DNA of 64,000 bases from a virus. Below are positions 2,549 through 57,277 of this stretch, piece by piece; the stretch's first letter is position 1, and every line of letters starts with the position of its first letter. The notes below the pieces were generated by a model, which saw nothing but the letters and a program-made list of their open reading frames with translations, did no database searches and was not told where the DNA came from. The position numbers were made by a program, and so were the translations under genes. Location of the stretch: positions 19,915 to 83,914 of IMG/VR virus record IMGVR_UViG_3300050021_000500. The stretch is one strand, 5' to 3'.

Positions 2549-2652
2549 GGCTATACTCCTTGTTCTTGTTGGATTTCTTTGGTACTCCGCGCAAAACTCA
2601 GCGGTTAAAGGGTTCGAGGTTTGGTGGCTTCAGGGTGCGCGCTCGTGATGCG

Positions 2653-2697
2653 CCGCCTGGCCCAACCGTCGCCGTGGGACGGCGCTGGCCCGGCTCT
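2653..2697 (-). repeat. cassette A left-arm hairpin
   Basis: Read on the minus strand: AGAGCC, stem 1 (GGGCCA / TGGGCC), GC, stem 2 (GCCGT / ACGGC), GACGGT, then GGCGGCG. Belongs to the left-arm subtype (stem 1 of GGCCCA type). Confidence 0.8.
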
Positions 2698-2718
2698 GAA
2701 GTCAGCTACCGGAGAGCC

Positions 2719-3024
2719 TTATTTGTTCTCGATGCGCTGTGCGATAGTGGCGGCAAAACCGCAGAGGCATGCCAGCCGCAAACCCAGGGCGGCGATTTTT
2801 TCTTCGATGGTGCTGAGTTCAGTTAGTTCGGGATCACCGGCTCTTGGCCCGAAGAGATTCGCGTGAATGGCGCACAGATGGCGTTCGAGTTCGCCGCTCC
2901 ACTTCAATGCCTCATCGGTCCTGGTGGTGAGACTGGCTTCTTTGAGCGGAGCCCGTGGGCCTTCCGCTGCGATCCGCGTCACCTGGGCAGGGGCGCGATT
3001 CGTGTTTTGCTGGTTGGGTCGCAT
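2719..3024 (-). CDS. hypothetical protein, cassette A cargo
   Basis: 101 residues, no recognised domain. Charged N-terminal half; a helix around residues 40-60 has a His and Cys (LERHLCAIHANLFG); the C-terminal half is Leu/Ala-rich with CLCGFAAT. It is the only gene between the two hairpin arms, and its start codon is 18 bases from the right arm edge. No good ribosome-binding site is seen, so expression may depend on readthrough from upstream. Confidence 0.55.
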   Translation of the reverse strand: MRPNQQNTNRAPAQVTRIAAEGPRAPLKEASLTTRTDEALKWSGELERHLCAIHANLFGPRAGDPELTELSTIEEKIAALGLRLACLCGFAATIAQRIENK

Positions 3025-3039
3025 AAATCTGTTTTGACT

Positions 3040-3291
3040 TCAGAGCCGCTTCAGCGGCCGTAGGCCGACGGTTGAAGCGGCGGCGTGGAGCGAGCGCCTC
3101 GCACAAAAGGGCAGGACCCCGATAGCTTTAACCGGAGCGGAATTCAGGCCGTCTATTGGATCGCTCCATGCTTCATACACGCGATCTGAACCGACAGCGG
3201 AGGTTTCGAACTTCTCGCGCTTTACGGGACCATAGGCGCGAATGAAGCCGAGCGGGCGCCGCAACTCTCTGCCGTCGGGGCCAAGGATCAT
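3040..3291 (-). CDS. hypothetical protein with C-terminus encoded by cassette A arm
   Basis: 83 residues. The first about 52 residues (from MILGPDGRELRRPLGF) are ordinary coding sequence. The last about 30 residues fall inside the right arm of cassette A, where the reading frame passes through the hairpin (VGLRPLKRL). The gene therefore appears to have had its 3' end replaced when the cassette arrived. Its start overlaps the NusG-like gene stop by 4 nt, so the two are cotranscribed. Function unknown. Confidence 0.6.
   Translation of the reverse strand: MILGPDGRELRRPLGFIRAYGPVKREKFETSAVGSDRVYEAWSDPIDGLNSAPVKAIGVLPFCARRSLHAAASTVGLRPLKRL
3042..3083 (+). repeat. cassette A right-arm hairpin
   Basis: AGAGCC, stem 1 (GCCGCTTCA / TGAAGCGGC, 9 of 9 paired), GC, stem 2 (GGCC / GGCC), GACGGT, then GGCGGCGTGGAGCGAGC. 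Right-arm subtype. Confidence 0.85.
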
Positions 3292-3788
3292 GCGACCTTC
3301 CGCTCAATCACTTGGATATCTTCAATTGCAACCCGAGTGCGAATTGACCGCTGGAACATCGTGACCGAAACCACCACAAGGGCCTCGCCTTTCATTTCGA
3401 TTACGTACCCTTCGAGGCCGACAAGCGGCCCACACCTGATTCTGATTTGTTCGCCGGCAGCCACATACGGGCAGGCGGTGACATCCGCTGTTGCGAATAG
3501 GGTCATGGTGCGAATCGCGTCGACCTCGGAGGTTGGGATGATCACCGGAGAATGGGCGCATCCCAAAATTGAGATAACCTGGGGAATTCGAATGACCGGG
3601 GTGCGCTCGGCCAGGTCGAAATTGGCGAACACGTACCCAGGAAAGAATTTGCGGGTGATGTCACGGCGCTTATCGCGCGACTTCGCCATCACGTGAGGGA
3701 AGAAGCTGTCGATGCGGGCCTCGGAGAGCCGGTCGACGACCTGGCCTTCGGTGTTGGAAGCGACGTGCAAGGCATACCACGGCAGCAT
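3288..3788 (-). CDS. NusG/RfaH/UpxY-family transcription antitermination factor
   Basis: 166 residues. The N-terminal NGN domain opens WYALHVASNTEGQVVDRLSEARIDSFFP and contains RKFFPGYVFANFDL, the conserved 'PGYvF' core. The C-terminal KOW domain is at about 115-160 (ropes around GPLVGLEGYVIE). NusG paralogues bind elongating RNA polymerase and let it read through terminators, usually on specific operons. As phage-encoded copies are uncommon, it is a good candidate for antitermination of the long early or late operons here, working with the nearby sigma factor. Length is typical for the UpxY group. Confidence 0.9.
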   Translation of the reverse strand: MLPWYALHVASNTEGQVVDRLSEARIDSFFPHVMAKSRDKRRDITRKFFPGYVFANFDLAERTPVIRIPQVISILGCAHSPVIIPTSEVDAIRTMTLFATADVTACPYVAAGEQIRIRCGPLVGLEGYVIEMKGEALVVVSVTMFQRSIRTRVAIEDIQVIERKVA

Positions 3789-24202: not shown

Positions 24203-24405
24203 TTGAGCCCCTTCGCCCCACCGAAAGGTACATTGAGCGCCGGGTTGAGTTCCACGAATCGGGCGCCGAGTTTTACCGCCAACATCAGCAGAGCGTGCTT
24301 GAGGCCTGGTCGCGGCAGATGGCCGCAGACTGGCGCCGGAAGTTGCCCCAAGAACCGCGGCCAGCACATGACGGTAAGATGCTTGCCGCCGGGGAGGCTG
24401 CCTGA
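24199..24405 (+). CDS. small helical protein
   Basis: 68 residues. Charged helix, ends HDGKMLAAGEAA. This C-terminal tail recurs in the gene at 27338-27601, see the repeated junction modules in the findings. Coupled by ATGA at both ends. Confidence 0.6.
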   Translation: MIEPLRPTERYIERRVEFHESGAEFYRQHQQSVLEAWSRQMAADWRRKLPQEPRPAHDGKMLAAGEAA

Positions 24406-24464
24406 TGCCCCGCCCAGCCAAATGCATCACGATTCTTCGGGCGGGGAAACCGGGGAAACGATGA
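24405..24464 (+). CDS. 19-residue peptide ORF
   Basis: MPRPAKCITILRAGKPGKR, coupled to both neighbours by stop/start overlaps. Basic. May be a coupling leader for the next gene rather than a functional protein. Confidence 0.4.
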   Translation: MPRPAKCITILRAGKPGKR

Positions 24465-25135: not shown

Positions 25136-25413
25136 AATATCGGAGTAAAACGAAACGCCCGTCACCGAAAGAGCAGGAGCAAGCCTGCGAGATCTGGAAC
25201 CTAAAGTATCCAATCGGCACGCCAGTGACCGTGGAAATGGATTCTGGCGAGATCCGCGCCACTACGACGCGCTCTGTCGCCTGGATGTTGGGGGCCGAGC
25301 CATCACGCAAGGACCCCGGCCACTCGGCGGTGGTTCTGATGGATGGAATCTCGGGATGCTATCTGGTGTCACGCGTGAGAGCCAAGGTCAACGCCGCCGG
25401 GGAGGTTGCCTGA
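25132..25413 (+). CDS. hypothetical protein
   Basis: 93 residues. Beta-rich core (GTPVTVEMDSGEIRATTT, GHSAVVLMDGISGCYLVSRV) like a small barrel, basic N-terminus. Found in many phages as a short early protein; role unknown. Confidence 0.65.
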   Translation: MKYRSKTKRPSPKEQEQACEIWNLKYPIGTPVTVEMDSGEIRATTTRSVAWMLGAEPSRKDPGHSAVVLMDGISGCYLVSRVRAKVNAAGEVA

Positions 25414-25625
25414 TGCCCCGCCGATCTACCTCCGGGGAAGAAGAGCCGCGCTGGATGCGGCCGAGCATGGATTTCCACTTTCGCGGACGATGCTTGCGTG
25501 TGTTCTGGCGCGGGGTGAAAGGGGTTCGGCACCCACTGCCGTATGCGTGGCACAAATGGGGCTTCTACGCTTTTGGGGTGGCGCTGATCGGGTTCATGTA
25601 CTGGCCAACGACGGAGGCAAACTGA
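25413..25625 (+). CDS. small membrane protein
   Basis: 70 residues. Starts MPRRSTSGEEEP, ends with a transmembrane helix (FYAFGVALIGFMYW). Its first seven residues and ribosome-binding site are repeated at the next gene's start. Confidence 0.6.
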   Translation: MPRRSTSGEEEPRWMRPSMDFHFRGRCLRVFWRGVKGVRHPLPYAWHKWGFYAFGVALIGFMYWPTTEAN

Positions 25626-25924
25626 TGCCACGCCGATCTACCTCCGATGCTCCGGTCATCCGTCAACATGGCCAGAGCAACGCCGAGAAGTACGTCATCG
25701 CCTTACGCAATGCGCAGGCGCTGTGGAGCAACCTGTCCGCCGAGGAGCGGAAGGAAGCCGAAGAGGGATTGCGGTGGGCTGAAGTCTTCGGCCAGATTTA
25801 CACTGGCCCGAAGTTGCGCGGCCGGCCGCCGGGCAGTAAGAATCGGCTGGCCGAGGTTCCGATTCCCGAAGAGTTGGCCACGAATAACGCGGCGGCGCCG
25901 ATGTTTGAGGAGCGCGAACCGTGA
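25625..25924 (+). CDS. hypothetical protein with AT-hook-like motif
   Basis: 99 residues. Same MPRRSTS opening as the previous gene. Helical middle (ALRNAQALWSNLSAEERKEA), then GRPPGSKNRL, an AT-hook-like basic turn. May bind DNA. Confidence 0.6.
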   Translation: MPRRSTSDAPVIRQHGQSNAEKYVIALRNAQALWSNLSAEERKEAEEGLRWAEVFGQIYTGPKLRGRPPGSKNRLAEVPIPEELATNNAAAPMFEEREP

Positions 25925-27601: not shown

Positions 27602-27930
27602 CGGAGAGAATGCCGGACGTATTTATTGGCGTTATAGACGATGTGAAACATGCAATCGCGTTCGCCCGGATGATCCAGCCGGCCTACCAGCGACAGCAAT
27701 GGAAATGGATTGCCGGCGGATTTAAGCGGGTTCCGACCGTCGCCGATATTGCCGAGACGATTGAGTTACTCGCTCGCGGAGTAGCCGATGGAGAAGCATT
27801 CGCTTCCACCGGAGGATTGACGGTGCGACGCGGAAATCGCCTCTATGTCAGTCCAGTGCTGAAGCCGGACAAACTGGTCTTCAGGCAGCGTGCGCAGAGG
27901 CTGTTGGCCAATGGGGAGACAACATCATGA
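27598..27930 (+). CDS. hypothetical protein
   Basis: 110 residues. VPTVADIAETIELLARGVA helix and a beta hairpin (TGGLTVRRGNRLYVSP), ending LLANGETTS, another version of the shared tail. Stop overlaps the start of the cassette B ORF. Confidence 0.6.
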   Translation: MTERMPDVFIGVIDDVKHAIAFARMIQPAYQRQQWKWIAGGFKRVPTVADIAETIELLARGVADGEAFASTGGLTVRRGNRLYVSPVLKPDKLVFRQRAQRLLANGETTS

Positions 27931-28760
27931 CGGAGAAAATGTCGAAGGGTTCCGCGCGGAAGGGCGAGTTGCCCGCCCTCCCGCCAGCCCAACCGTCGCC
28001 CGCAAAGCCGGGCGCTGGGCCGGCTCTAGAGAATACCGTCCTGATCCTGCGTACATGCAGTGCCGACATGCTGAGCCACGGCGGCTTTCGGTGGCCGGAG
28101 AGCGGCCCAGTGGAGGTACCTGACTGGAATCCAAAGCATGTATGCGGCGGTGGCTTGCACGGTCTGCTGTGGGGTGAGGGCTCCGTCTCGTACCTCAATT
28201 TGGATGAGTTGGCCAAGTGGATCGTGTTCCGCGCCCAGATGGCCGATTTGGCGCATGGCACCGGCGAACTGATCGACAAGTGTAAGGCCCGCGCGGGAAC
28301 GGTGGAATACTGCGGATGTCGCGACGGGGCAATCAGCTACCTCATGGCCAATGGTGCCGCAGGAAAAGCGGTTGTCTTCGGCACGGCGACGGCGGGCGAC
28401 AGCGGCACGGCGACGGCGGGCTACAGCGGCGTGATTACCATCCTGTACTGGAATGACAAGCGCTATAAGGCTCGCATCGCGCAGGTCAAGGACGAAGACG
28501 GATACGGCGAGCTGGAGCCCAACACGCCGTATAGGCTGAACGTTCAAGGGAACTTTACCAGAGCCGATGCTGCGCCGCGCTCTGGCGGCGACGGTAGCAT
28601 CGGCGGCGTGGAGCGAGCGGGGACGGGCACGGTAGAACAGCCACGGAGCCTTTCTCCGTTGAATCCTACCGGGGATATTTTTATGATTGCTGACATCATC
28701 TTTGCATCTGGTTGGCTGGTAGTTGGACTGGCTCTAATTTTCAGGAGACGCCTGCGATGA
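27927..28760 (+). CDS. cassette B cargo protein (repeat-bearing)
   Basis: 277 codons as read. Residues about 1-33 come from the left arm and about 210-245 from the right arm. The cargo part (about 34-209) has CGGGLHGLLWGEGSVSYLNL, CRDGAISYLMANGAAGKAVV and the tandem GTATAGDSG / GTATAGYSG, then ITILYWNDKRYKARIAQV; it resembles phage proteins with short surface repeats. The last 25 codons (from ATG at 28683) encode a lone transmembrane helix that may have been a separate gene before the cassette entered. Function unknown. Confidence 0.65.
   Translation: MTEKMSKGSARKGELPALPPAQPSPAKPGAGPALENTVLILRTCSADMLSHGGFRWPESGPVEVPDWNPKHVCGGGLHGLLWGEGSVSYLNLDELAKWIVFRAQMADLAHGTGELIDKCKARAGTVEYCGCRDGAISYLMANGAAGKAVVFGTATAGDSGTATAGYSGVITILYWNDKRYKARIAQVKDEDGYGELEPNTPYRLNVQGNFTRADAAPRSGGDGSIGGVERAGTGTVEQPRSLSPLNPTGDIFMIADIIFASGWLVVGLALIFRRRLR
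27982..28027 (-). repeat. cassette B left-arm hairpin
   Basis: Minus strand: AGAGCC, stem 1 GCCGGCCCA / TGGGCTGGC (one G-T), GC, stem 2 GCCCG / CGGGC, GACGGT. Left-arm subtype. Confidence 0.85.
28560..28606 (+). repeat. cassette B right-arm hairpin
   Basis: AGAGCC, stem 1 GCCGATGCT / AGCATCGGC (9 of 9), GC, stem 2 GCCGC / GCGGC, GACGGT, then GGCGGCGTGGAGCGAGCGG. Right-arm subtype. Confidence 0.88.
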
Positions 28761-30372: not shown

Positions 30373-30940
30373 GGAGTTTCGGAAGTTCTACCGCGGTGCC
30401 GCCTGGAGGGATGCGCGGCACCGCATCCTCGCCCGGGCCGGTGGGAAGTTCAATCTCTCGGGCAACTACCTGGGATCAGCCAGGTGCGAGGCCTGCGGGA
30501 AGCCAGATAGGACGAGGGTTGAAACGTTCAGCGATCACGCCATGGGCTTCCTGGGGCACCGCGGCCTACCGGTGATGTTCTGGCGCACCGCAGGATCACC
30601 CTGGCGCGATTGGGATGGCGTGGACGACGGCCAGGACCACCGTAATCACCCGCATCTTGTGCCCGAAGGAGATGGTTGCCTCGTCGCGAATACCGATTTG
30701 CGCGCTTTCTGGGTGGCTGAAAGGAAAGCCATGAAGTCCCGCGTCTGGTTTCTCTCTACTCCTCACGCCACGGGCGCCTGTGCGACTTGTACGGCGCCCG
30801 CCAGGGGCTTCGACTCCCAGGCAGTGACCCGATGCTGTGGGGAGTGCGAGAAGGGCTGTCAGTGCGGCTTCCAGGCCCGACAGCGGGAGATTGTACGTGA
30901 GATGCCAATTCAGCACAAGGCGAGGAGGGCTACGGCATGA
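30359..30940 (+). CDS. degenerate HNH-type protein
   Basis: 193 residues from MPIRKEFRKFY. ARHRILARAGGKFNLSG and CEACGKPDRT open like phage HNH proteins, and HPHLVPEGDGCLVANTDLRAF aligns with the usual 'AHLDH.P.....NLRALC' box. But the expected second Cys pair (C-x2-C) is replaced by WVAERKA, and the C-terminus is an unrelated Cys-rich stretch (CATC, CCGECEKGCQCGFQ). Probably inactive or repurposed. Confidence 0.55.
   Translation: MPIRKEFRKFYRGAAWRDARHRILARAGGKFNLSGNYLGSARCEACGKPDRTRVETFSDHAMGFLGHRGLPVMFWRTAGSPWRDWDGVDDGQDHRNHPHLVPEGDGCLVANTDLRAFWVAERKAMKSRVWFLSTPHATGACATCTAPARGFDSQAVTRCCGECEKGCQCGFQARQREIVREMPIQHKARRATA
30883..30923 (+). repeat. 41-bp direct repeat, copy 1
   Basis: Starts GCGGGAGATTGT and ends CAAGGCGA, encoding EIVREMPIQHKA; 39 of 41 bases match copy 2 at 31181. 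The two copies bracket the 30937-31167 gene. Confidence 0.85.
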
Positions 30941-31167
30941 AGTCCGAAATCGAGAAACTATCCGCGCTGGTGGAGCGCCAGCGGCAGACCATTGCGCGCC
31001 TGTCGGCTCCCGGCATCGAGCGGGCGCCCTGGTTTTACGCGCCCTGCTCCAACTGCGGAGCCATCGAAGGCATGGGGCTGACGACGCCAGAAATCGATGG
31101 GGCGCGAAAGCCCGGATACAGCTCGCTCTGGTGCATCCGGGTGTTTTGGTGTTGGTCAAGTTGCTAA
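30937..31167 (+). CDS. hypothetical zinc-motif protein between direct repeats
   Basis: 76 residues. N-terminal helix (KSEIEKLSALVERQRQTIARL) then PCSNCGAIEGM and a Trp/Cys-rich end (WCIRVFWCWSSC). Lies exactly between two 41-bp direct repeats, so it may be an insertion or duplication unit. Confidence 0.55.
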   Translation: MKSEIEKLSALVERQRQTIARLSAPGIERAPWFYAPCSNCGAIEGMGLTTPEIDGARKPGYSSLWCIRVFWCWSSC

Positions 31168-31180
31168 ACCGCTGTAAGCC

Positions 31181-31221
31181 GCGGGAGATTGTTCGCGAGA
31201 TGCCAATTCAGCACAAGGCGA
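31181..31221 (+). repeat. 41-bp direct repeat, copy 2
   Basis: Second copy of the 30883 repeat, with two mismatches. It is followed by the next gene's ribosome-binding site. Confidence 0.85.
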
Positions 31222-31237: not shown

Positions 31238-32116
31238 ATGACGACAGAAGAAGCTGTACAAGCGATCACGGTGGCGCTGGATCGCCGGTGCTGCCATCAG
31301 TGCCACGGCGCGGGGACGGTTAGCGTGATGGGTGGGCAGGTGTTCGAGACGGATTCGGATGAAGAGGCCCAACTGGCGTACCAAACTGTGGCTTGCCCGA
31401 CATGCATCAAGGTCCGAGCCGACGCTCTCGCCGCGCTGGAGGAGATGCGGAAGGACTCGGAGCAAACGGCAGAAGAGCCGACGCATATCTACCACGCTTG
31501 TGGCTATATCGATGAGGGCGGTCCTGGATTCCCTTGCACAAATTCTGTTGAGCTTGGGAAACATTGTGAAGGCCATACAGATCCGGCAGAGCAGAAGACC
31601 GCTAATGCCGACGCTGCCATCGAACAGGCCGAGGATGAGCATATACGACGATTTGGCGGCGAATGGGGAGATGAGCATACGGAAGATCGTAAGGCTTGGG
31701 CGGCACAGAGGGCTGGGGCCGCTTGCCAGTGCCCGGCGCGGATAGCGATCCGGTTATTTCTATCCGGGCTCGCGCCAGCCTCCCTTGGTAGACAGATGTA
31801 TTTTTTGAAAGATCGGACGGAACTTGAATCCGCCCTCTCCGCCCGCTGCCCATGCTGCGCGGAGCGGGATGAAGCGATCCACACGCGCAGCCTGGCTCAA
31901 GCGGCGAGCACGCGGGATCTGGAGGCGAAGCGGGCAGTGGAAGAAAAATTACGGCTTGCGCTGGACATAAATGACCTCCTGCGGGCGCGGGTGCCGTTGG
32001 AGCCTGGCGCGAACACAAATACGGCGCCGGTAAATCCGCTATTGGTGGGGACTAATGCGCCGAAAGCGTTAAAGCCGCAGGGCCTGGCGGGCATTGAGAG
32101 CGGAGGGAAAAGCTGA
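31238..32116 (+). CDS. hypothetical protein with several Cys pairs
   Basis: 292 residues. CCHQCHGAGTV and CPTC form a DnaJ-like zinc knuckle near the start; CGYIDEGGPGFPC and CPCC follow later. The rest is acidic and helical. Unknown; its stop touches the start of the cassette C ORF. Confidence 0.65.
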   Translation: MTTEEAVQAITVALDRRCCHQCHGAGTVSVMGGQVFETDSDEEAQLAYQTVACPTCIKVRADALAALEEMRKDSEQTAEEPTHIYHACGYIDEGGPGFPCTNSVELGKHCEGHTDPAEQKTANADAAIEQAEDEHIRRFGGEWGDEHTEDRKAWAAQRAGAACQCPARIAIRLFLSGLAPASLGRQMYFLKDRTELESALSARCPCCAERDEAIHTRSLAQAASTRDLEAKRAVEEKLRLALDINDLLRARVPLEPGANTNTAPVNPLLVGTNAPKALKPQGLAGIESGGKS

Positions 32117-32805
32117 TGCCTGAGAAGTTGCTGAAGCCCCCCGCGCTGAGGAGCGACCCGCTCGCGATCCCGCCGGCCCAGCCGTCGTCCGCAAAGCCGG
32201 GCGCTGGACCGACTCTGAGCCATGAGGAGTTGCGGAAACGTGCAGTCCAGTGGTTGACCAATACCAAGCGCTGTGGCGTCGTCTTGTCGGAGATCGTTAC
32301 AGGTTGCTCCGAGATCCCCGACGCCATCGGGTGGCGCGGCCACACCTCCTACATTGTGGAATGCAAAACAAGCCGTTCCGACTTCCGTGCGAATAAAACC
32401 AAAATTCACGCGCGCTGTAACCGTGGCGTCGGACAGTTCCGCTACATCATGGTGCCGAGATGCCTGACGGATCAGGTATTGAAATCAGAAGCGCCGGTAC
32501 GGCCTGAAGACCTGGAAGGTTCGGACTACGGATTACTCTGGTGCTCGGCAGAATCCGGCACGGTTCGAGTGATGAAGGAAGCGACCGTGCGCGAACAATG
32601 CCAGGATGACGAGATCACGATGCTAGTGTCGGCATTGCGGCGCGTGCGCGCAAGAGAGTTCTTAATTCTTGTCCAAGAAACGCAGCAGGACTCCAGAGCC
32701 GATGCTGCGCCGCGTTCCGGCGGCGACGGTAGCATCGGCGGCGTGGAGAGAGCGCCCCGAACCACAGAGCAACCCGCCCCAGCACCTTCTCAGGAGAACG
32801 CTTAA
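32116..32805 (+). CDS. PD-(D/E)XK nuclease-like protein (MmcB-like), cassette C cargo
   Basis: 229 residues. Arm-encoded ends (IPPAQPSSAKPGAG at the start; ADAAPRSGGDGSIGGVERA at the end) flank a core of about 155 residues. The core has LSEIVTGCSEIPDAIGW (acidic motif), HTSYIVECKTSRSDFRANK (E-x-K catalytic motif) and GVGQFRYIMVPR, the layout of small VRR/MmcB-type nuclease-fold proteins. In phages these may resolve branched DNA or cut host DNA. The arms are not part of the nuclease fold. Confidence 0.72.
   Translation: MPEKLLKPPALRSDPLAIPPAQPSSAKPGAGPTLSHEELRKRAVQWLTNTKRCGVVLSEIVTGCSEIPDAIGWRGHTSYIVECKTSRSDFRANKTKIHARCNRGVGQFRYIMVPRCLTDQVLKSEAPVRPEDLEGSDYGLLWCSAESGTVRVMKEATVREQCQDDEITMLVSALRRVRAREFLILVQETQQDSRADAAPRSGGDGSIGGVERAPRTTEQPAPAPSQENA
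32170..32215 (-). repeat. cassette C left-arm hairpin
   Basis: Minus strand: AGAGTC, stem 1 GTCGGTCCA / TGGGCCGGC (all nine pair, two as G-T), stem 2 GCCCG / CGGAC, GACGGC. Left-arm subtype. Confidence 0.82.
32695..32741 (+). repeat. cassette C right-arm hairpin
   Basis: Stem 1 GCCGATGCT / AGCATCGGC, stem 2 GCCGC / GCGGC, GACGGT. Near-identical to the cassette B right arm; right-arm subtype. Confidence 0.88.
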
Positions 32806-33057
32806 ATGCACTGTGAACACATGAACTTGCCCGGCGGTGGTTCCGTCATCGTCTGTGGGCCGAAGAAGGCAACGAAGAAATGCTCGGTATGTGGAAGGGG
32901 AAGCCGGGAGTATCGGCTCTGCGACTTCCCAATGCAGGCTGGGAAAACTTGCGACCGGATCTTGTGCCCAGCATGCGCAACGCACCAGAAACCGAATCTT
33001 GATTACTGTCCTCAGCACGCGGCGCTGTTGACGCCGGAAGGGAGACTGAAGCTGTGA
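32806..33057 (+). CDS. zinc-finger small protein
   Basis: 83 residues. KCSVCGRGSREYRLCDFPM, CDRILCPACATH and YCPQHA give a double zinc knuckle, a familiar small phage layout. Unknown function. Confidence 0.72.
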   Translation: MHCEHMNLPGGGSVIVCGPKKATKKCSVCGRGSREYRLCDFPMQAGKTCDRILCPACATHQKPNLDYCPQHAALLTPEGRLKL

Positions 33058-35461: not shown

Positions 35462-35775
35462 CGCCCCAACAATTTGCCGACCGCATGAACCGGATGACGG
35501 GTGAGGAGATCGCCCAAGCGATGGAATCGCTGCCTACAGACGCGCTGGAGTGGGGTGTGAAGTTCGAGGCACTGGGCAACATGCCTGAAAAGCTGCCGAA
35601 GGGTTCCACGCTGAAACGTGACCCGTGCGTGATCCCGCCAGCCCAACCGTCGCCAGCAGAGCCCGGCGCTGGGCCGGCTCGGAAATACTGTAACTGCATC
35701 CACGGCACCGATGCCGGCCGGTACTGCGTGATCCGGCACGCTCCGTACTGCGCGCTCCATGGGGAGCACGCTTGA
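35458..35775 (+). CDS. chimeric gene disrupted by cassette D
   Basis: 105 residues. The first 42 residues (QQFADRMNRMTGEEIAQA...) look like an ordinary small helical phage protein. From residue 42 the sequence is the cassette arm (MPEKLPKGSTL, IPPAQPSPAEPGAG) and then a Cys-rich end (YCNCIHGT..YCVIRHAPYC) from the cassette interior. The native 3' part is no longer recognisable. Confidence 0.6.
   Translation: MTPQQFADRMNRMTGEEIAQAMESLPTDALEWGVKFEALGNMPEKLPKGSTLKRDPCVIPPAQPSPAEPGAGPARKYCNCIHGTDAGRYCVIRHAPYCALHGEHA
35636..35681 (-). repeat. cassette D left-arm hairpin
   Basis: Minus strand: stem 1 GCCGGCCCA / TGGGCTGGC, stem 2 GCC / GGC with a larger loop, GACGGT. Left-arm subtype. Confidence 0.83.
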
Positions 35776-37166
35776 GCTATCGGATCATCTGCGGTGACGC
35801 GCTGACAGTGCTGAAGACGATGCCCGAGGAAAGCGTGCAGTGCTGTGTGACGAGTCCGCCGTACTGGGGCCTCCGCGATTACGGCGTGGTCGGGCAACTT
35901 GGCTTGGAGCCCACCATCGAACTGTACATCGCCCATATCGTCGAGGTGTTCCGTGAAGTGCGGCGGGTGCTCAAGAACGATGCGACGCTCTGGCTGAACA
36001 TGGGGGATTCCTACTGCTCCGATGCCGGCGCCGATAGAAAACCCACCACGCTTGCCGGAGCCCGTGTCCCTTCTGGATGGACAAATAGAGCGCAGCCACA
36101 TCGGGTTCATGCACTCCGTAAGGGCAAAGATAAAGACCCGAAGCGCGGGGCGTCCGCCGACAGCGCCGTGATTTCTGCGGTAACCGGCCTAAAACCGAAA
36201 GACCTCTGCATGATCCCGGCGCGCGTCGCGTTGGCGCTGCAAGCGGATGGCTGGTGGCTCCGCTCAGAGATTGTGTGGCACAAGCCCAACCCGATGCCTG
36301 AGAGCATCCGGGATCGTCCGACCAAAAGCCACGAGATGCTCTACCTACTGTCGAAGAGCGAGAGGTACTTCTACGACGCGGACGCCATCAAGGAGCCGAC
36401 TACGGGCAGCGCCCACGATAGAGCGCGTAAGAACCGCGCCGCCGATGGGCAGAAGACGCTGCCGACAGCGGAACGAAACGGGGTGCGACCGGCATTTGAG
36501 CGCCTCGGACGCGAAGGCCTGAACAGTCGCATGCACCAAGACCGCGACGCCAATCATTCGAGCGAGCGGAAGGTCCGCGCGCCCGGCGTGAACCCGAAGG
36601 CGCAGAAGTGGCCCAACGCATGGAGTGCTGAAGACGGCCGCCACGATGGAATCGGCAACGGTCGTTTCCGCCCGAGCGGCAACAAAGAGCGCAAACTCGC
36701 GGGCCCGGCGAATGGACGCCTGGAGACGCACATGGGCAGCGGCGTGCCCTGGCCGCCGCAGATTCGTCCCAAGCAGAACGAATCATTTTCGGCAGCGGTA
36801 GTGCGAACAGTGGAGCGGCGCAACCGGCGCACCGTCTGGACCATCGCAACGAAGCCATTCAGCGGCGCCCACTTCGCCACCTTCCCACCGAAGCTGATCG
36901 AGCCCTGCATCCTGGCAGGCTCCCGGCCCGGTGACGTGGTGCTGGATCCGTTTGGGGGCGCGATGACCACGGCCCTGGTGGCGCAAGAGCATGGCAGGGA
37001 TTCAGTGATGATCGAATTGAAGCCCGAGTACGTGAAGATGGGCGACGCGCGACTCGCTGACGCCAGAGCCGGTTCAGCGCCGGTCCTCCGGCGACGGTTT
37101 GAACCCGGCGGTGTGGAGCAAGCGGACACGGGCGCGGCGAAGAAACCACGGAGCCTTTTTCAGTAA
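35772..37166 (+). CDS. N4-cytosine/N6-adenine DNA methyltransferase (beta class), cassette D cargo
   Basis: 464 residues, TTG start overlapping the previous stop. VTSPPYWGLRDYG is catalytic motif IV near the N-terminus; SEIVWHKPNPMPES is the usual mid-block; VVLDPFGGAMTTALVA is motif I near the C-terminus. The IV-then-I order is the beta class. Residues about 210-330 are a long basic Asn/Arg/Gly insertion, probably the recognition region. The last about 30 residues (VLRRRFEPGGVEQADTG) are the hairpin arm. Likely modifies phage or host DNA; no matching restriction enzyme is next to it. Confidence 0.88.
   Translation: MSYRIICGDALTVLKTMPEESVQCCVTSPPYWGLRDYGVVGQLGLEPTIELYIAHIVEVFREVRRVLKNDATLWLNMGDSYCSDAGADRKPTTLAGARVPSGWTNRAQPHRVHALRKGKDKDPKRGASADSAVISAVTGLKPKDLCMIPARVALALQADGWWLRSEIVWHKPNPMPESIRDRPTKSHEMLYLLSKSERYFYDADAIKEPTTGSAHDRARKNRAADGQKTLPTAERNGVRPAFERLGREGLNSRMHQDRDANHSSERKVRAPGVNPKAQKWPNAWSAEDGRHDGIGNGRFRPSGNKERKLAGPANGRLETHMGSGVPWPPQIRPKQNESFSAAVVRTVERRNRRTVWTIATKPFSGAHFATFPPKLIEPCILAGSRPGDVVLDPFGGAMTTALVAQEHGRDSVMIELKPEYVKMGDARLADARAGSAPVLRRRFEPGGVEQADTGAAKKPRSLFQ
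37066..37112 (+). repeat. cassette D right-arm hairpin
   Basis: Stem 1 GCCGGTTCA / TGAAC-CCGGC (one bulge), stem 2 GCCGG / CCGGC, GACGGT. Right-arm subtype. Confidence 0.82.
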
Positions 37167-43078: not shown

Positions 43079-46000
43079 TCACATTGCTAACGTAGCGTGA
43101 TCGAATTCCCAATTTCCGCCGAAGCCGACGAAACTGATGATGGAGGTAGAGTTCGCGGCGGAGTTGGTCGCCGCATCAACCAGCGGTCCAAACAACACGC
43201 CAGTGCCCCAGGTCACCGCCCACCCTCCGGTGCCATCCTGTTTGATGCGGGCCTTCCAGATCCACCCATCGGAAGGCGTGCCAGGGGAACTGATGGTCGT
43301 AGCAGCCGTGAGCGTCTGGTTGGTAGTGAGGACAACGGCTGGAGTTGCCGATGACGGCAACGGGCCAAATAAAACCCTATCGTAGGCGGCAGCAGACCAA
43401 GCGCCGGTTTGCAGAACCGACTTCCCGTTTGCCGGCACCCAGTCTGCCGTCGAGGTGGCGTTTCGGTTCATCACATAGAACCGGTACTGCATGTAAACGT
43501 AGGTGGTCCCGGTATTGTAATCGAACTCCAACGGGTCAGTGGACCGTGCCATGCCCGCGCTCACGGTATCGCCTATAGGATCGTTGGGACCGTAGAACAC
43601 TACCTCAGTACCACCCATGTTAGATGGCGCGGGCGTCCCACTTGCGTCGGTGCATTGCACCGTGATGCGGGTAAATGATGCGTTCACATCCGTGGGGTCG
43701 GTCCATGTGACTCCAGGAATGCGAACAAAATGCGAACCATCTGCCCGCGTCACATCATAAGGATTTGGACCGCTTACGCCAGCAGCAATAGTCGCCGTGG
43801 TAACGCACGTCGCAGAGGGAAGCCCAAGTCCGCCCACGCTGAACGCCGAAGATGCCGTAGCACCCAACCCCACCAAATCAGACGCAGAGTACAGCCGGTT
43901 TGGATCTCCCAGGATGGCTCCGGTCATGCAGTACGCGTACCAATTGGTCGTTGTCGCCGGGACAAGCCGCATGAAAGGGAAAGACTGGCTGGCACCCACC
44001 ATGACGTTCCACCCGACGCCCTGATACTTGGTTGGGTCGGTAGCCAGGGGGAGCCAGAAGGTGACGTTCTGCGGAACCTGGTTTCCATTGAGCGTGGGCG
44101 CAATGTTGATCTGCGTGGAGAGCAGACGCGTGATCGGGTCGGCTACGCGATTGGTGGGATAGTCGGCGGCGGCGACGGCGGTCACTGCCGACGCCTCAAC
44201 CGTTACGGTCGCTGTATAAGGCGAGGCAGTGGGCGCCCCGTACTCATTCAGGCAGGTAAACCGCAGCGTCCAGCCGACAGCCGTTCTCCCCTGCGGAAAC
44301 TGTATCGTCCCGCCGTCGTAGCTGGCATACGTCGCACCGAACGAGGAGCGCGGGACAGACACTATGGGGGTCCAGCTTGTGCCCCCCGTGATCTGCGCGT
44401 CGATCTGAATCGACGCAAGGTGGGAGTAGTTGGGATCAGATGTCGGCAGCGTAATCGCGTTCACCCCAACGAAGCCAAACGACGAATCATTGCCGTTCAT
44501 CCCGTAGGCCGCGGTCGCTGTAGCCGCGGTGACGTTGGGCGCCGCTGCATTGGTCAGGATGGCAGGGCCAAAAAGCAGGCGTAAATATGCGGCACCGCCC
44601 CAAGCGGTGGTCTCCAGGACTGATTTACCGGCAGACGGGTTCCAGTCCGCAGTATTCGTAGCGTTGCGGTTCATGTAGTAGAACCGGTACTGCATGTAGG
44701 TGTACGTTGAGCCGACAGGGTTATAGTCGAACTCCAAAATGTCAGTCGCACGCGCCGCCCCAGGGCTTACCACGTCCCCGAGCGCGTCCAGCGGGCCATA
44801 GAACGGCACTTCCGTTCCGCCCTGTCCGGAAGGAGCCGGGCTGCCACCCGAGTCCACACACTGCACGGTGATTCGCATGAAGGAAGCGTTCGGGTCCGTG
44901 GTGTCGGTCCAGGTGACGCCGGGGATGCGAACATAGTGCGAACCGTCTGGGCGCATTTGGTCGTAGGGGTTTGCTCCTCCGACCCCGGCGGCGATAGCGG
45001 CGGTGGTGACCGCATTTGCGGCCGGCAGGCCCAAGCCCGATATCGAAATACCGGATGAAACCACGGAGCCGGGGTAAAGTGTGGCCAAATTGGCCGACGT
45101 GACCGCGACAGACGGTGAGCCGACAGCACCGGAGCAGGCGGCAATCTTCCACGTCTGCGCGGGGCCGGGGACAAGCCGGGCAAATTGGATCTGCTGACCA
45201 ACCGTGTCCATGCGCGCCCATCCGCACCACGTGTACGTCGCTCCATTGTCGGTGCTGAGAAGATAGGTGACGTTCTGCGGTACCTGGCCACCGTTGAGGA
45301 TTGGGATGAACCCTACCGTCAAGCTGAGGAGTCGCGTCGCGGCATTCACCGGATCGATATATCGCGTCCCGACTTCCACCGCCGATGTGAAACCGCTGAC
45401 AGCGGATGCCTCTACCGTGACGCTCACGGTGATTGGGGAATCGGTTGGTGAGCCTGCCGCATTCAGCGCGGTGAACCGGACCGTCCAGGAAGAGGACGCC
45501 CGCGTCTGCGGAAACTCAAATACTGGGCCAGTATAGTCCACGTAACTGCCGCCAAACGATGCCTGCGGAATAGTTACGACATTTGTCCATCCCGTCGCCC
45601 CATTCAATTGCGCATCCACCTGCACCGCTGCCAGATAGGAGTAGTGAGGGTCCGCTGTGGGAAGGATGATGCGCCCGGCGAAACCGAAAGACGAATCGTT
45701 TGCCCACATGCCGTAAGAGGCCGCTGCGGTTGTGCCCGAGACGGTAATATTCGGTGCGGCAGCCAGAACGGCAGGGCCGAACGAAAGTCGCAAATAGGCC
45801 GCACTGCTCCAGGCCGTCGTTTGCAGCACGGACTTCCCGGAGACGGACCAATCGGCTGTGGAGGTGGCATTCCGGTTCATGACGTAGAACCGGTACTGCA
45901 TGTACGTGTAGGTAGAACCGACGGGGTTGTAGTCGAATTCCAACGGGTTGGTGGCGCGCGCCATGCCCGCGCTCACGGTATCGCCGATGGGATCGTTGGG

Positions 46001-47053
46001 GCCGAAGAACGGAACCTCGGTACCGCCTTGGTCTGCCGGCGCGGCAACTCCCGAGGAGTCCACGCATTGCACCGTGATCCGCGTGAACGAAGCGTTCGGG
46101 TCCGTGGGATCCGTCCAGGTGACTCCAGGGATGCGGACAAAATGCGAACCATCGGCGCGAATCACGTCGTAGGGATTCGCGCCGCCCACTCCGGCCGCGA
46201 TGGCCGCTGTGGTGACGCACGAAGCGGAGGGTAGCCCCAGCCCCGCAACGGTTCCGCCGGCGCCCGATCCAGTGATGCTCCCGCCCACGGCACCCAGCGC
46301 GGTCAACTCCGCCGCGGTATAGAGATGGTTGGGATCGCCGACAAGCGCCCCCGTCGCGCAGTAAACCGACCATGCCGTGTCGGCAGCGGGTACCAGGCGG
46401 ACAGCGGAGAACGTCTGCCCCACCGTCGTCATCTTGTCCCAGCCGACGCCTTGGTACTTGGTTGGATCCGTGGCCAACGGGAAGAACGAGGTCACGTTCT
46501 GCGGGACCTGCCCACCATTCAGCACCGGCACGTAGGTAATCAACGTGGAGACCAGCCGGGTGATAGGATCGGCAGTGCGGGTGCCCGTGTCCGTGCCTGC
46601 GACGCTCGTCACGGCAGACGCTTGCACCGTCACGCTCACGGTGACCGGCGAGGCGGTCGCGGAGCCGAGTTCATTCACCGCGAGAAACTGCAATTCCCAA
46701 TAAGCGATGGCGCGGGTCTGCTCAAATTCTCCGCTGCCAATGTCCGAACCGGATGAATAGGTCACCGTACTCAGGCCGAATGACGCGCGCGGCACTGTCA
46801 CCACCGGAGCCCACCCGGTAGTCCCCACGATCCGTGCATTGATCTGGATGGAGTCCAGGTGCGCGTAATCCGGGTCGGTAGTCGGGAGTGTGATCGTTCC
46901 CGCAAGTCCGAACACGCTGTCGTTCGCCCACATGCCGTAGGTGGCCGCGGCGGTGGCGCTGGTGATGTTGGGGGCGGCAGGGCCGGCCGGAGGCGTACTC
47001 CCTCCGCTGACGCCGGCGATTCCCCCTCCCGCGAGTTGGATCCAGGTTGGCAT
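43079..47053 (-). CDS. tail fibre/adhesin with three tandem about 405-residue modules
   Basis: 1324 residues. Three tandem modules (about 30-430, 433-838, 841-1237) each begin with a block like TYGMWANDSVFGLAGTITLP, then TGW.PVVTVPRASFG, a FN3-like strand set, RIPGVTWTDPTD, FTRITVQC, and close with YTYMQYRFYVMNRNAT and SVLQTTAW..AAYLRL.FGP. A C-terminal beta domain (about 1240-1324, DGWIWKARIKQDG) follows. The repeats suggest expansion of a receptor-binding stalk by internal duplication. No chaperone or enzyme domain is seen. Confidence 0.8.
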   Translation of the reverse strand: MPTWIQLAGGGIAGVSGGSTPPAGPAAPNITSATAAATYGMWANDSVFGLAGTITLPTTDPDYAHLDSIQINARIVGTTGWAPVVTVPRASFGLSTVTYSSGSDIGSGEFEQTRAIAYWELQFLAVNELGSATASPVTVSVTVQASAVTSVAGTDTGTRTADPITRLVSTLITYVPVLNGGQVPQNVTSFFPLATDPTKYQGVGWDKMTTVGQTFSAVRLVPAADTAWSVYCATGALVGDPNHLYTAAELTALGAVGGSITGSGAGGTVAGLGLPSASCVTTAAIAAGVGGANPYDVIRADGSHFVRIPGVTWTDPTDPNASFTRITVQCVDSSGVAAPADQGGTEVPFFGPNDPIGDTVSAGMARATNPLEFDYNPVGSTYTYMQYRFYVMNRNATSTADWSVSGKSVLQTTAWSSAAYLRLSFGPAVLAAAPNITVSGTTAAASYGMWANDSSFGFAGRIILPTADPHYSYLAAVQVDAQLNGATGWTNVVTIPQASFGGSYVDYTGPVFEFPQTRASSSWTVRFTALNAAGSPTDSPITVSVTVEASAVSGFTSAVEVGTRYIDPVNAATRLLSLTVGFIPILNGGQVPQNVTYLLSTDNGATYTWCGWARMDTVGQQIQFARLVPGPAQTWKIAACSGAVGSPSVAVTSANLATLYPGSVVSSGISISGLGLPAANAVTTAAIAAGVGGANPYDQMRPDGSHYVRIPGVTWTDTTDPNASFMRITVQCVDSGGSPAPSGQGGTEVPFYGPLDALGDVVSPGAARATDILEFDYNPVGSTYTYMQYRFYYMNRNATNTADWNPSAGKSVLETTAWGGAAYLRLLFGPAILTNAAAPNVTAATATAAYGMNGNDSSFGFVGVNAITLPTSDPNYSHLASIQIDAQITGGTSWTPIVSVPRSSFGATYASYDGGTIQFPQGRTAVGWTLRFTCLNEYGAPTASPYTATVTVEASAVTAVAAADYPTNRVADPITRLLSTQINIAPTLNGNQVPQNVTFWLPLATDPTKYQGVGWNVMVGASQSFPFMRLVPATTTNWYAYCMTGAILGDPNRLYSASDLVGLGATASSAFSVGGLGLPSATCVTTATIAAGVSGPNPYDVTRADGSHFVRIPGVTWTDPTDVNASFTRITVQCTDASGTPAPSNMGGTEVVFYGPNDPIGDTVSAGMARSTDPLEFDYNTGTTYVYMQYRFYVMNRNATSTADWVPANGKSVLQTGAWSAAAYDRVLFGPLPSSATPAVVLTTNQTLTAATTISSPGTPSDGWIWKARIKQDGTGGWAVTWGTGVLFGPLVDAATNSAANSTSIISFVGFGGNWEFDHATLAM

Positions 47054-47140
47054 TTAATTGGGTATTCAGTTGGCGATGAAGATTGAAACGGTTAAAGGCT
47101 TCGAGGCTTGTGGGCCTGAGTGCGGAGGGCTCGTGATCCT

Positions 47141-47187
47141 GCCGCCGGGGCCAACCGTCGCCGCAGGACGGCGCTGGCCCGGCTCTA
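47141..47187 (-). repeat. cassette E left-arm hairpin
   Basis: Minus strand: stem 1 GCCGGGCCA / TGGCCCCGGC (one bulge), stem 2 GCCG / CGGC, GACGGT. Left-arm subtype, close to cassette A. Confidence 0.8.
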
Positions 47188-47210
47188 AAGGTGTAAACTG
47201 GGATTGTTAT

Positions 47211-47283
47211 TGCGGATTGGCGCAGAGGCAGCGCGGGAGGCTCATAACCTTCAGGTCATCGGTTCGACCGATATCCGCTACCA
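47211..47283 (+). tRNA. tRNA-Met (CAT), unusual 5-nt T-loop
   Basis: Acceptor stem of six pairs (GCGGAT / ATCCGC) plus a T-T mismatch at 1-72, D-stem GCGC / GCGC, anticodon stem GGAGG / CCTTC, loop CTCATAA with anticodon CAT, T-stem ATCGG / CCGAT with loop TTCGA (5 instead of 7 bases), encoded CCA. The mismatch at 1-72 recalls initiator tRNA. CAT could also be a lysidine-type Ile tRNA. Inside cassette E. Confidence 0.8.
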
Positions 47284-47540
47284 AGATCCCACCCACACGA
47301 TGAGGGGGGAGTGGAAAGCCCAACGTAGTCAGGGAATTCAGGAATCGACGGGCATGGTTAGTAGCGGGGCCGGTTGTGAGTGAATACCCCGCGAAACAAA
47401 CCTGAAGCCATCGCAGTAAACCGGCCGATCCGGGTAGATGGTGACAGCGGTTGACCGTAATGAACTCAACGGCCTGTAGGTCCTAAGTTGGGATACTGCT
47501 CTCCCCGCCCCTCCGATCTCCCGCACCCGCATTTGACCTC

Positions 47541-47586
47541 AGAGCCGCTTCAGCGGGCCGTCTTCGGCCTGACGGTTGAAGCGGCG
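47541..47586 (+). repeat. cassette E right-arm hairpin
   Basis: Stem 1 GCCGCTTCA / TGAAGCGGC (9 of 9), stem 2 GGCCG / CGGCC, TGACGGT, then GGCGGGAACCC. Right-arm subtype, stem 1 equal to cassette A. Confidence 0.85.
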
Positions 47587-47639
47587 GGAACCCAAAGCGG
47601 GCCGCCCTTTCAGCGCGTCTCCCGCCAACTTCTCAGGGC

Positions 47640-53653: not shown

Positions 53654-56600
53654 CTAAACCACGCTCGCCTTGCGCATCGAATTCAAAACCACCTGGTTGC
53701 CGGAAAAATCGTTGGCGATGGTCTGTGAGATCGCGACGCCATGCTGGCTCAAGAAATCATTCACGCCCTTCGAATCGATCGCGCTGACGTTGAACGTCAC
53801 GTTTCCCCCAGCGCCGGGCGACATCGGATTCGAAGGCGTCGAGGGATAGGGCTGCTGCACCATCGGCGGCCCGAATTGGGAGGTTACTCCGCCAGGCACC
53901 ATCGTATTGTGCTGGTAGTCGGCATACGGTTCTTGAACCTGGGGATAGGGGCCGAGATTTGACCCCCTGACGTCGCCATTCATACTGTAATCCGAGTACC
54001 CCCCGTTGGCCCCCATACTCACGTTCAACGGCGTAGGCGCGAAGAATTGCGAGGTCTTCAGCTTGTTCTGGATGTCCGTCTCGCGCTGTTGCGGACCCGC
54101 CGTCAGCAAGCTGCTCAACATACTGAGGCCCATACCCGCGCCCGCCACGATGGGTGCCGCCGGACCTGCAAGCCCCGCCATCATGGCGATGGCGCCGCCG
54201 GCCGACGCCAGGGAGCCGAGAGCGCTCATTGTTCCCTTGGCCCCGCCACGGCTGAACCCCTGGTAGGCCCCGAGGATTCCCCCTGCGGCGGCCCCGGCGA
54301 TGCCTATTCCCTTCCCCAAGGTCAAACCCGATCCGCTGGTGCCCTCTCCGCTATCGCCGCCACTTTGCTGGCCATCCGTAGGCAGGCCCCAGGTTTCCCC
54401 TCCTCCGGCGGATCCGGTTTCACCCGAGCCGGTGCTGCTGCCGTCGCCGGCGGATCCGGTTTCACCCGAGCCGGTGCTGCTGCCGTCGCCGGCGGATCCG
54501 GTTTCACCCGAGCCGGTGCTGCTGCCGTCGCCGGCGGATCCGGTTTCACCCGAGCCGGTGCTGCTGCCGTCGCCGGCCATCCCCGCCGGGCCGCGCTGCC
54601 ACAGGCCGGAGGAGTTTTGCGAGAGACCCGCCGTTGAGTCGCCGCCGCCGATAGTCTCACCGCCCGTCGTCCCGCTGCTCGGGTTCAGCCATACCCCGTT
54701 CATGCCGGCCAGACCGGCGAAGGTGTTGAACCCTCCGAGGATGCCCGAAGCCGACCCACCGCCGCCCGAAGGCGACGTGGCCCAATCCTGGACTTGCTTC
54801 AACAGGTCGGTCAGGTTGTTCAATGCCGCCGTGTTGTCGCTGGTTTTTTGGGTGTTGTCTGCCACCTTGAGGGTGTTGTCGGTCATGCCCGCTTTGGCCG
54901 GATCCGGGCCGAGGGGTGTGCCCGTGAGGACCTTCCCGAGCGTGGTGCCCGCCTTGGAGCGCAGGCCTCTGGTGGCCTTTTGAATCTCCGGCCACACCAT
55001 GCCCGCGACGTTGCCCACTATGGTGTCTTCGATCTTGTTGACCTGGCCCTTCAGGAAGCCCCCGACCCCGCCGGACTTCGCTGCGTTGAATAGGCCCACC
55101 GCGAACGATTCGAAGGCCTCCTTCTGTTTCAGCGCCAGGTTGAGCAAGGCGTTCTCGCGTTCCACCTGCGCGTCGAAGACCTTTTGTTTGAGATCGGCGT
55201 CCGCTATGTCGCGGGCCGCTTGTTTGTCTTTTTCGGTCTCGCGCAATGCAGCGATCTTCAGTTCCGCCTGATATTCCAGCGCCGCCTGATTGATCCGGAG
55301 ACTATATGCGTCGGCAACGTCCGTGCCCTCGCTCTCGCCCGCCAGACGGTTGCGCACCCCGACTTGGCCCAGTTGTTTCCGCCCCATGTCGCGCAGGTTC
55401 TTGAGCGAATCCTCATCCACTTTCAGCGCGGAGGCGCGCACGTCCTTGGCGGTTTTAACGAAATCCTTGGCTATCGTTTCCGCCGCCTTATCGGCGTTTT
55501 TATAGACTTCTTCCCATTCCTTGCCTGCTTCCTTGGCAATCTTGTCACCGATGGTGAGGGACCGCTTTTCGAGTTTGTCCAGTTCCGCGGCGTACTGTTT
55601 CGCCGATTCACCGACGTAGGTCACGAACGCCGCGCGCTCCTGAAGATCGTAGGACGCATTGACCTTGCCGGCGTTGGCTTGGGGTTTGCGTAATTCGTCG
55701 GCGCGCTCGCTGGCGATTTTGACGCGGGACTGGTCGTACTTTTTCTGCGGGGAATCTTCTCCCGCGGCGAAAGACGCATTGTAAAGTTCCTGGGAGCGCC
55801 TGGTTAATTCGATTTCCCGCTTCTGCGCGGCGGACAACTGGCCGATGGCTTTTTCCTGTTCTTTCAGAAGTTTGATTTTGGCGTCGAGCTGCTGAAGGTC
55901 CTTCAGTCCGCTGGCGCGCTTGGCATCCGTATCGGCTGCGAGATAGTGGGCCTCGGTGCTTTCTCTCGTCGCCTGGAGTTCCTTCAGATCCGCCTGCATC
56001 CGCGTTTTGGGGTCTTCTCCCGCCATGTTGTAGGCGCGGAGTTTCTGGCTATTGGCATCGCGCAGCGCTTGCTCGGGGGCGATCGCTCCGGGGAGTTTGG
56101 GTGCCCCAGGCGCTGGTGCCGCCGTACCAAACCGCTCCCACAGATCCCGTATCTGGTCAAAGGCTTCAGCGCCGCCGCCGATTACCCCCGCGCCAGCGCC
56201 AATACCTTCCAGCCCCTTGCGCGCCTGACTCTTCTCTGCTGTCTTGCCAATGATAAATTCGATCACTCCTATGGCGGGAATTGCCAGCTTTTGTTTCAGC
56301 GCATCCCACTGGAACCCCAGAAGCACCAGTTCTTCCTTGTACTTCTCGGCCTTGCCGATGGCCTCCTCGGTCATCACCACGCCGCTTGCTTTGGCGCGGG
56401 CCTCCAATTCCTGGAAGTGGGCAAATAGCGGTTCCATCTCCAGGCCACTGCGCCCGAACAGCGTGATCGTCATGCGGTCGCGCTCCATGACGTCGCCCAC
56501 CGCGGCTAACTTCTGGAAAAGAGCGGGCAGTAGTTCGCCCATGGGCTTGAAGGCGGCGTCGGCCCCCATGCCGAGTTCCGCCAAAACCTGCTTTTGCTTC

Positions 56601-57277
56601 TTGCCTTCGTCCGAATTCTCGCTCATACCACGCGAGAGCGTACGCATTGCCGTTGTGAGCGTGCCCGCATTGACCCCGGCCATCTCCGCCGCACGGCCGT
56701 ATAACTGCGTCTCGGTGGTCGTCATTCCCGTGCGCGATGCCAGACGGGAGATCTCCTGAGCATACGCCGCAGTCTGGTTGGCATTTTTCAGCAGCCATCC
56801 GCCGGCCAGGGCGAGCCCGGCCCCCACACCTACTGCCGCCACTCCGATAGCGCCATATTGCAGCGCGAAGCTCTCCGCCGCATTCCCCGCCGCCTGTAAG
56901 GGGTTCTGGATGAAGTTCTTGATTGAGGCGCCTAACTGCTGGTTGCTCTGATCGTGCTGGGCGTTGATTTTGAGCGCCTGCTCCTGCGCAGCCTGGATCT
57001 TCCGCCAACCCAACTCTTCCACTTCGAAGGCGCGTTTCTGCTGGGCCCGATATCGCTCCCGGTCCTGTTCGCTCTTGGCTTCCGACTTGGCGTAGTCTTC
57101 GCTGGCCTGGTGCGCCCGCTGCATCGGGTTGACCATGGCGGCTTGCCGCTGGTTCAGTTGCTCCTGAGCGGTTGCCAGTTCCTTGGTGCGCTGGACCTGC
57201 TGCTCCGTGAGCGCAACTACCTTGCCTACGTTTTCCAGCCCGGTTTGTACGGCATTGAACTCTAATTCGAAACTCAA
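53654..57277 (-). CDS. tape measure protein
   Basis: 1207 residues. N-terminal heptad region (about 1-110), a hydrophobic segment (IGVAAVGVGAGLALAGGWLL near 150-170), a long charged helical region with many Lys/Glu/Gln (to about 760), a disordered Gly/Ser/Thr stretch with a 14-residue repeat (about 900-957), and hydrophobic segments near 980-1080 (GIAGAAAGGILGAYQG..). It sets tail length; at about 1.5 angstrom per residue the tail would be roughly 180 nm. Position and length fit well. Confidence 0.9.
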   Translation of the reverse strand: MSFELEFNAVQTGLENVGKVVALTEQQVQRTKELATAQEQLNQRQAAMVNPMQRAHQASEDYAKSEAKSEQDRERYRAQQKRAFEVEELGWRKIQAAQEQALKINAQHDQSNQQLGASIKNFIQNPLQAAGNAAESFALQYGAIGVAAVGVGAGLALAGGWLLKNANQTAAYAQEISRLASRTGMTTTETQLYGRAAEMAGVNAGTLTTAMRTLSRGMSENSDEGKKQKQVLAELGMGADAAFKPMGELLPALFQKLAAVGDVMERDRMTITLFGRSGLEMEPLFAHFQELEARAKASGVVMTEEAIGKAEKYKEELVLLGFQWDALKQKLAIPAIGVIEFIIGKTAEKSQARKGLEGIGAGAGVIGGGAEAFDQIRDLWERFGTAAPAPGAPKLPGAIAPEQALRDANSQKLRAYNMAGEDPKTRMQADLKELQATRESTEAHYLAADTDAKRASGLKDLQQLDAKIKLLKEQEKAIGQLSAAQKREIELTRRSQELYNASFAAGEDSPQKKYDQSRVKIASERADELRKPQANAGKVNASYDLQERAAFVTYVGESAKQYAAELDKLEKRSLTIGDKIAKEAGKEWEEVYKNADKAAETIAKDFVKTAKDVRASALKVDEDSLKNLRDMGRKQLGQVGVRNRLAGESEGTDVADAYSLRINQAALEYQAELKIAALRETEKDKQAARDIADADLKQKVFDAQVERENALLNLALKQKEAFESFAVGLFNAAKSGGVGGFLKGQVNKIEDTIVGNVAGMVWPEIQKATRGLRSKAGTTLGKVLTGTPLGPDPAKAGMTDNTLKVADNTQKTSDNTAALNNLTDLLKQVQDWATSPSGGGGSASGILGGFNTFAGLAGMNGVWLNPSSGTTGGETIGGGDSTAGLSQNSSGLWQRGPAGMAGDGSSTGSGETGSAGDGSSTGSGETGSAGDGSSTGSGETGSAGDGSSTGSGETGSAGGGETWGLPTDGQQSGGDSGEGTSGSGLTLGKGIGIAGAAAGGILGAYQGFSRGGAKGTMSALGSLASAGGAIAMMAGLAGPAAPIVAGAGMGLSMLSSLLTAGPQQRETDIQNKLKTSQFFAPTPLNVSMGANGGYSDYSMNGDVRGSNLGPYPQVQEPYADYQHNTMVPGGVTSQFGPPMVQQPYPSTPSNPMSPGAGGNVTFNVSAIDSKGVNDFLSQHGVAISQTIANDFSGNQVVLNSMRKASVV
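54407..54577 (-). repeat. 42-bp tandem repeat in tape measure gene
   Basis: Four near-perfect 42-bp units in frame, encoding GDGSSTGSGETGSA repeatedly. Copy number probably varies between relatives and would tune tail length or flexibility. Confidence 0.9.

Follow-up and report, generated by a model that had tools for sequence, protein, structure and literature searches.

The question raised by this locus is how a single phage gene came to be fitted, almost to the base, between two others, and whether its product had any part in placing it there. We analyzed a stretch of 64,000 nucleotides (hereafter the window), which corresponds to positions 19915–83914 of an 83.9-kb virus contig (G000), a phage with a T4-type terminase (Terminase_6N). 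An initial annotation had recognized at 32119–32794 a single-gene unit whose perfect 9-bp inverted ends nearly coincide with the ends of its ORF. This observation is confirmed; it is correct, and larger than stated. The unit, which we call unit C, measures 676 bp from tip to tip (plus strand). The left tip, CCTGAGAAG (32119–32127, plus strand), is matched by its exact reverse complement, CTTCTCAGG (32786–32794, plus strand), and homology between the two ends ceases just outside the tips. These sit 3 and 11 bases inside an ORF of 229 aa (32116–32805, plus strand) that encodes an MmcB-like PD-(D/E)XK protein (PHROG 631), and the ATG immediately outside the left tip is the start of this ORF. The stop codon of the left neighbor overlaps that start codon (TGATG), the next gene begins at 32806, and an AGGAG that overlaps the outer edge of the right tip is a possible ribosome-binding site for this next gene. 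The annotation had named, among what would refute its reading, a housekeeping place shared by every relative; the gene does not have one, as its neighbors are different in L007/G005 (IMGVR_UViG_3300050020_000227). The larger feature that had been missed is a covarying hairpin just inward of each tip. Unit C contains two inverted copies of this ~47-nt hairpin, 42–44 bases inward of the tips, with compensatory base changes. Under our covariance model of the element, R1, the left copy (32160–32218, minus strand) scores 66.8 bits (E = 2.8e-18) and departs from the consensus by a single point change (CGACGGC for CGACGGT), and the right copy (32693–32751, plus strand) scores 76.3 bits (E = 2.2e-21).

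We aligned 15 copies of the element to describe its structure, in which an outer stem of 9 bp is followed by an internal loop, conserved as GC on one side and as GACGGT opposite it, and then by an inner stem that varies. Across the alignment 93% of the cells are paired, with 21 two-sided compensatory cells versus a mean of 5 after shuffling, and the signal is abolished when pairing partners are slid as a control. Model R1 finds 13 elements in G000, 8 in G002, 1 in G004 and 2 in L007/G005, none of them below 43.9 bits; the next best score, counting these records and another two viral ones, is 16.3. A tip-like motif is present 41–46 nt outside the hairpin in 22/22 elements of G000, G002 and G004; in control stretches, such a motif falls within 2 nt of that position in only 1.4% (stricter score) or 4.9% (looser score) of cases. 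The spacer between tip and hairpin is not conserved. In 19 of the 22 elements the hairpin strand folds more stably; the bias is similar in control segments, and we therefore draw no conclusion on a strand preference of folding. A search for a known RNA family in Rfam returned tRNA alone.

The 13 elements of G000 are organized as six pairs, each with a minus copy followed by a plus copy, and one solo element (P = 0.0016 for random orientation). The pairs delimit six units with the same two-part ends and different cargoes, in the order F, D, A, C, B, E. Unit A (27930–28659, plus strand; hairpins at 27971–28029, minus, and 28558–28616, plus; tips ACGGAGAAA/TTTCTCCGT) carries a DUF7666-like protein (Pfam E = 4.7e-4, below the curated cut-off). 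Unit B (35584–37164, plus strand; hairpins at 35625–35683, minus, and 37063–37121, plus) carries an N6/N4 DNA methylase (ORF 35772–37166). Unit D (2602–3134, listed without strand; hairpins at 2643–2699, minus, and 3040–3093, plus; tips CGGTTAAAG/CTTTAACCG) has a cargo to which no identity was assigned. The cargo of unit E (47089–47637, plus strand; hairpins at 47132–47188, minus, and 47539–47597, plus) is a tRNA-Met (47211–47283), and unit F, which lies outside the window (contig positions 5318–7380, 2.06 kb), carries at least one HTH_37 regulator among several short ORFs. No transposase was found among the unit cargoes scanned. The two tips match at 9/9 positions in units A, C and D, at 7/9 in B and F, and at 4/9 in E, whose tips are thus mismatched. 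Taking the six units of G000 with two units of G002, tips pair better within units than when permuted (61 versus a mean of 47 of 72 positions, P = 0.013, 8 units), as they do for the six G000 units alone (P = 0.03).

The eight elements of G002 include two pairs and four solo copies, and the one element of G004 is also solo. A solo hairpin element, without partner in its contig, was observed at contig positions 15959–16022 of L059. G002 and G004 are unrelated to G000. The carriers of the end element are not a single phage lineage, because G002 has a GpA-type terminase (along with a tyrosine integrase) where G000 has the T4 type, and because DNA similarity between the two is limited to the end elements. 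Known phages and plasmids gave no DNA match. The viral collection was screened by exact patterns only, so more divergent carriers may exist; two further viral scans using the end patterns produced no new carriers. We also considered whether the elements derive from REPs encoded by the host. When 84,980 species genomes were scanned with an exact pattern, six matches were listed, from unrelated phyla and with poor pairing, and R1 gave at most 30 bits on these six genomes (32.7 for one pattern match itself) versus 44–78 bits for real elements. This is a weak negative, because the pattern was exact and the candidates were limited to the matches listed.

Two comparisons between phages bear on whether these units move. 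The region 32162–32743 (plus strand), bounded by both hairpins of unit C, is identical at 581/582 positions in L007, where the surrounding sequence has nothing in common with the window. In L007 both hairpins are retained and the tips are lost, and the gene begins and ends with codons made of different bases that lie beyond the shared core. This copy stands between direct repeats of 8 bp, ATTATGAC, at 7–11 nt from the core (~1% by chance); at the tips of the six G000 units there is no clear or consistent target duplication. The second comparison involves L112 (IMGVR_UViG_3300048785_000090), a sister phage that is 83–92% identical to the late genes of G000 and lacks unit F. Identity on the two sides of the site is 89–91%, the empty junction can be aligned to the flanks of F, once these are joined, so that only about 10–20 junction bases differ and the match reaches to within about 12–20 bases of the tips, and the empty site lacks any hairpin element. 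The difference may reflect a gain in G000 or a loss in L112, the comparison being unrooted. The near-identical core in L007 and the empty site for F in L112 each show mobility on comparative grounds. No empty site for unit C itself was found, and no relatives were found at the site of unit E. L112 also contains an 886-bp insertion (2703–3588) between genes that are adjacent at G000 contig position 11756; it is absent from G000, lacks hairpin ends and by eye resembles an HNH endonuclease gene.

We suggest, with a probability of about 60%, that unit C is a member of a family of non-autonomous phage cassettes, insertion-cassette-like, which would be moved in trans via their structured ends. We favor this reading because paired inverted two-part ends enclose different genes, and because whole units are present, absent or transferred between phages. 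The main rival is homologous shuffling: the hairpins would be repeats that mark or regulate the ends of genes, and ordinary homologous recombination between hairpins that both phages already had would swap the cassettes, as proposed for T4-type promoter-stem-loop cassettes. Several of our observations fit such exchange, including the retention of hairpins but not tips in L007 and the solo elements in G000, G002 and G004, and gene-end repeats are known from phage genomes (PMC3203893; Arbiol et al. 2010, cited in PMC3950731). Block exchange moreover is common in these phages: in the gene to the left of unit C, a 287-bp block without hairpins (31583–31869) is 95% identical in L082 (5373–5653) while the remainder of the gene differs, a mosaic exchange at sub-gene scale. 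L082 has 4.09 kb in common with L007, the two being overlapping contigs. Exchange from hairpin to hairpin could explain L007 but not L112, because the L112 site has no element to recombine with, and yet the whole unit is there in G000. Boundary repeats would likewise not be expected to stand in inverted pairs, with tips particular to each unit and at a fixed spacing, and the ends of unit C show no promoter or terminator signal beyond chance (a scan for promoters of the sigma-70-like type found none in 31900–33000). We consider homologous shuffling as the sole explanation possible but clearly the less probable one.

All carrier contigs are metagenomic, and assembly can go wrong at repeats of ~50 nt, so that chimeric joins might resemble mobile cassettes. 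This seems highly improbable. G001, another assembly of the same virus, is 100% identical to G000 over 45.6 kb, units D and F included, and G003, a separate record of this virus, is 99.8% identical over 9.3 kb that include the right end of F. Covariation and tip matching, furthermore, are sequence properties of single elements.

The initial annotation had also identified the cargo of unit C as a PD-(D/E)XK protein, by the core IVECKTSRSDF, and had proposed that this nuclease could assist the spread of the unit as homing genes do. The first of these claims holds. The core is present in the ORF, which is assigned to phrog_631 (E = 4e-22), and both a profile search (E = 1e-4) and the predicted structure (E = 7e-7; mean pLDDT 79.6) give SPO1766 (PDB 3dnx) as best match, the family of which we take to be MmcB-like. 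In an alignment with free-standing phage homologs the protein matches their EIPDAIGW and ExK motifs; the whole of the former is invariant, as are the E and K of the latter. A PD-(D/E)XK fold is thus supported. Among known phages the protein matched 151 records, mostly Vibrio phages, all at <60% identity. What sets it apart from the MmcB-like family is that the ORF of unit C is fused in frame with tails from the ends of the unit. Among the relatives, found in 52 viral loci, are free-standing genes that start M-THEEL where the cassette reads TLSHEEL, at the point where the left end stops; the cassette ORF thus has tails (34 residues N-terminal and ~37 residues C-terminal) that the unit ends encode. 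By this comparison, the ends of the unit stand in for the start and stop codons of the cargo gene.

The proposal that the protein drives the spread fared less well. It would require cleavage of the empty site by the PD-(D/E)XK protein, after which repair would copy the cassette in, and the nuclease fold and motif, together with the fit of one gene between two others, are what one would expect of such a unit. However, the five other units of G000 have the same ends without any nuclease recognized by Pfam or PHROGs, the gene family is common and free-standing in phages, without these ends in the relatives scanned, and the closest solved relative is the MmcB-like SPO1766 and not a homing endonuclease. 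Homing is therefore very unlikely.

We compared the units with known systems of mobile or repeated structured elements. They resemble mobile insertion cassettes (MIC231-like; we follow the definition used in PMC1196294) in that inverted ends enclose passenger genes but no transposase, and in a mobility inferred in trans. Unlike the ends of MICs, which derive from IS231, those described here combine a tip with a conserved hairpin ~43 bp inward, and the units are found in phages; no parent IS or autonomous copy was found in the viral records, or in cellular genomes as screened by exact pattern alone. Like REPINs of the REP-RAYT system and CGTC-tagged REPs, they are non-autonomous and have short structured palindromes paired in inverted orientation, in some cases inside ORFs (PMC3116915, PMC3733652). 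The phage elements lack the GTAG or CGTC foot, however, their stems being mostly flanked by AGA(G) and (GGC)GG; the units span 0.5–2 kb, enclose genes where REPINs have a short spacer, and have an additional, distant tip. No RAYT was found, and the exact-pattern scan of cellular genomes gave no convincing copies. We rejected identity with REPINs on the absence of the foot and of a RAYT in the six viral records scanned. For T4-type promoter-stem-loop (PeSL) cassettes, in which an early promoter is coupled to the stem-loop, PMC3950731 describes stem-loops that recur at gene boundaries and are tied to gene shuffling in phages. As far as that description goes, our elements are similar in these respects and differ in that they have no detected promoter of the sigma-70-like type, form inverted pairs with matched tips, and are lacking at the empty site. 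In the open-licence literature searched we found no description of this end element.

Integrons deserve separate mention, since phage integrons and attC clusters with DNA methylase genes have been reported (PMC9892861), and their cassettes share with our units the folded, recombination-site-like hairpins and the varied cargo, methylases included. If the units were cassettes of this type, with attC-like folded sites, they would be moved by an integron integrase. The RYYYAAC box occurs in none of the elements, though, and GTTRRRY in only 6/24; attC arrays have one site per cassette, all in the same orientation, whereas each unit here has two inverted ends. In the absence of attC boxes we rejected identity with integron cassettes, and movement of this kind is most improbable.

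Returning to a cassette moved in trans, a recombinase or transposase supplied by the phage or the host would recognize the paired ends, each made up of the outermost, unit-specific 9-bp tip and the conserved hairpin ~43 bp inward. This enzyme would excise or copy the unit and then insert it at gene junctions. There, an ORF without start and stop of its own could be expressed, with the start codon taken from the left end and both the stop codon and a ribosome-binding site from the right end. The PD-(D/E)XK protein would be a passenger, useful to phages in other ways, for example in DNA repair or in attack on DNA. Pfam scans of part of the genes revealed two serine resolvases (G000) and a tyrosine integrase (G002); nothing connects them with the ends, and they are only candidates for the enzyme. 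Against this mechanism, we found no autonomous copy or transposase; the Y1 transposase (PF01797) is absent from six viral records in a search whose control did respond. The want of a consistent target duplication at the tips, the lost tips in L007, the mismatched tips of unit E, the existence of solo ends, and the exchange of small blocks free of hairpins also speak against it, and both routes, movement in trans and homologous exchange, may operate. More speculatively, a dedicated recombinase might read tip and folded hairpin and capture single genes from start to stop across unrelated phages, as bacterial integrons do; we regard this as a tentative and rather unlikely extension.

The window contains other repeats. 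A 41-nt direct repeat, 95% identical (30883–30923 and 31181–31221), flanks a small ORF (30937–31167) as if the latter were another insertion or duplication. A ~34-nt repeat (GGAGGTTGCCTGATGCCCCGCC...), which resembles start-associated sequences, is found at three gene starts (24393–24426, 25401–25434 and 25613–25646). Internal repeats with a period of ~1206 bp (43439–46573) lie inside an ORF of 1324 aa (43079–47053), probably a tail or fiber protein, and 42-bp tandem repeats (54363–54614) lie within ORF 53654–57277.

How phages gain single accessory genes (morons) with clean boundaries is mostly unexplained. The units described here have ends that can be defined and cargoes of several kinds, and they come with one empty site and with one recent transfer between phages that otherwise differ. 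Covariance model R1 and the exact coordinates of the ends make the cassette question testable, and the missing enzyme can be searched for. The units look like a phage route for swapping single genes, in which the nuclease would be a passenger and not the driver.
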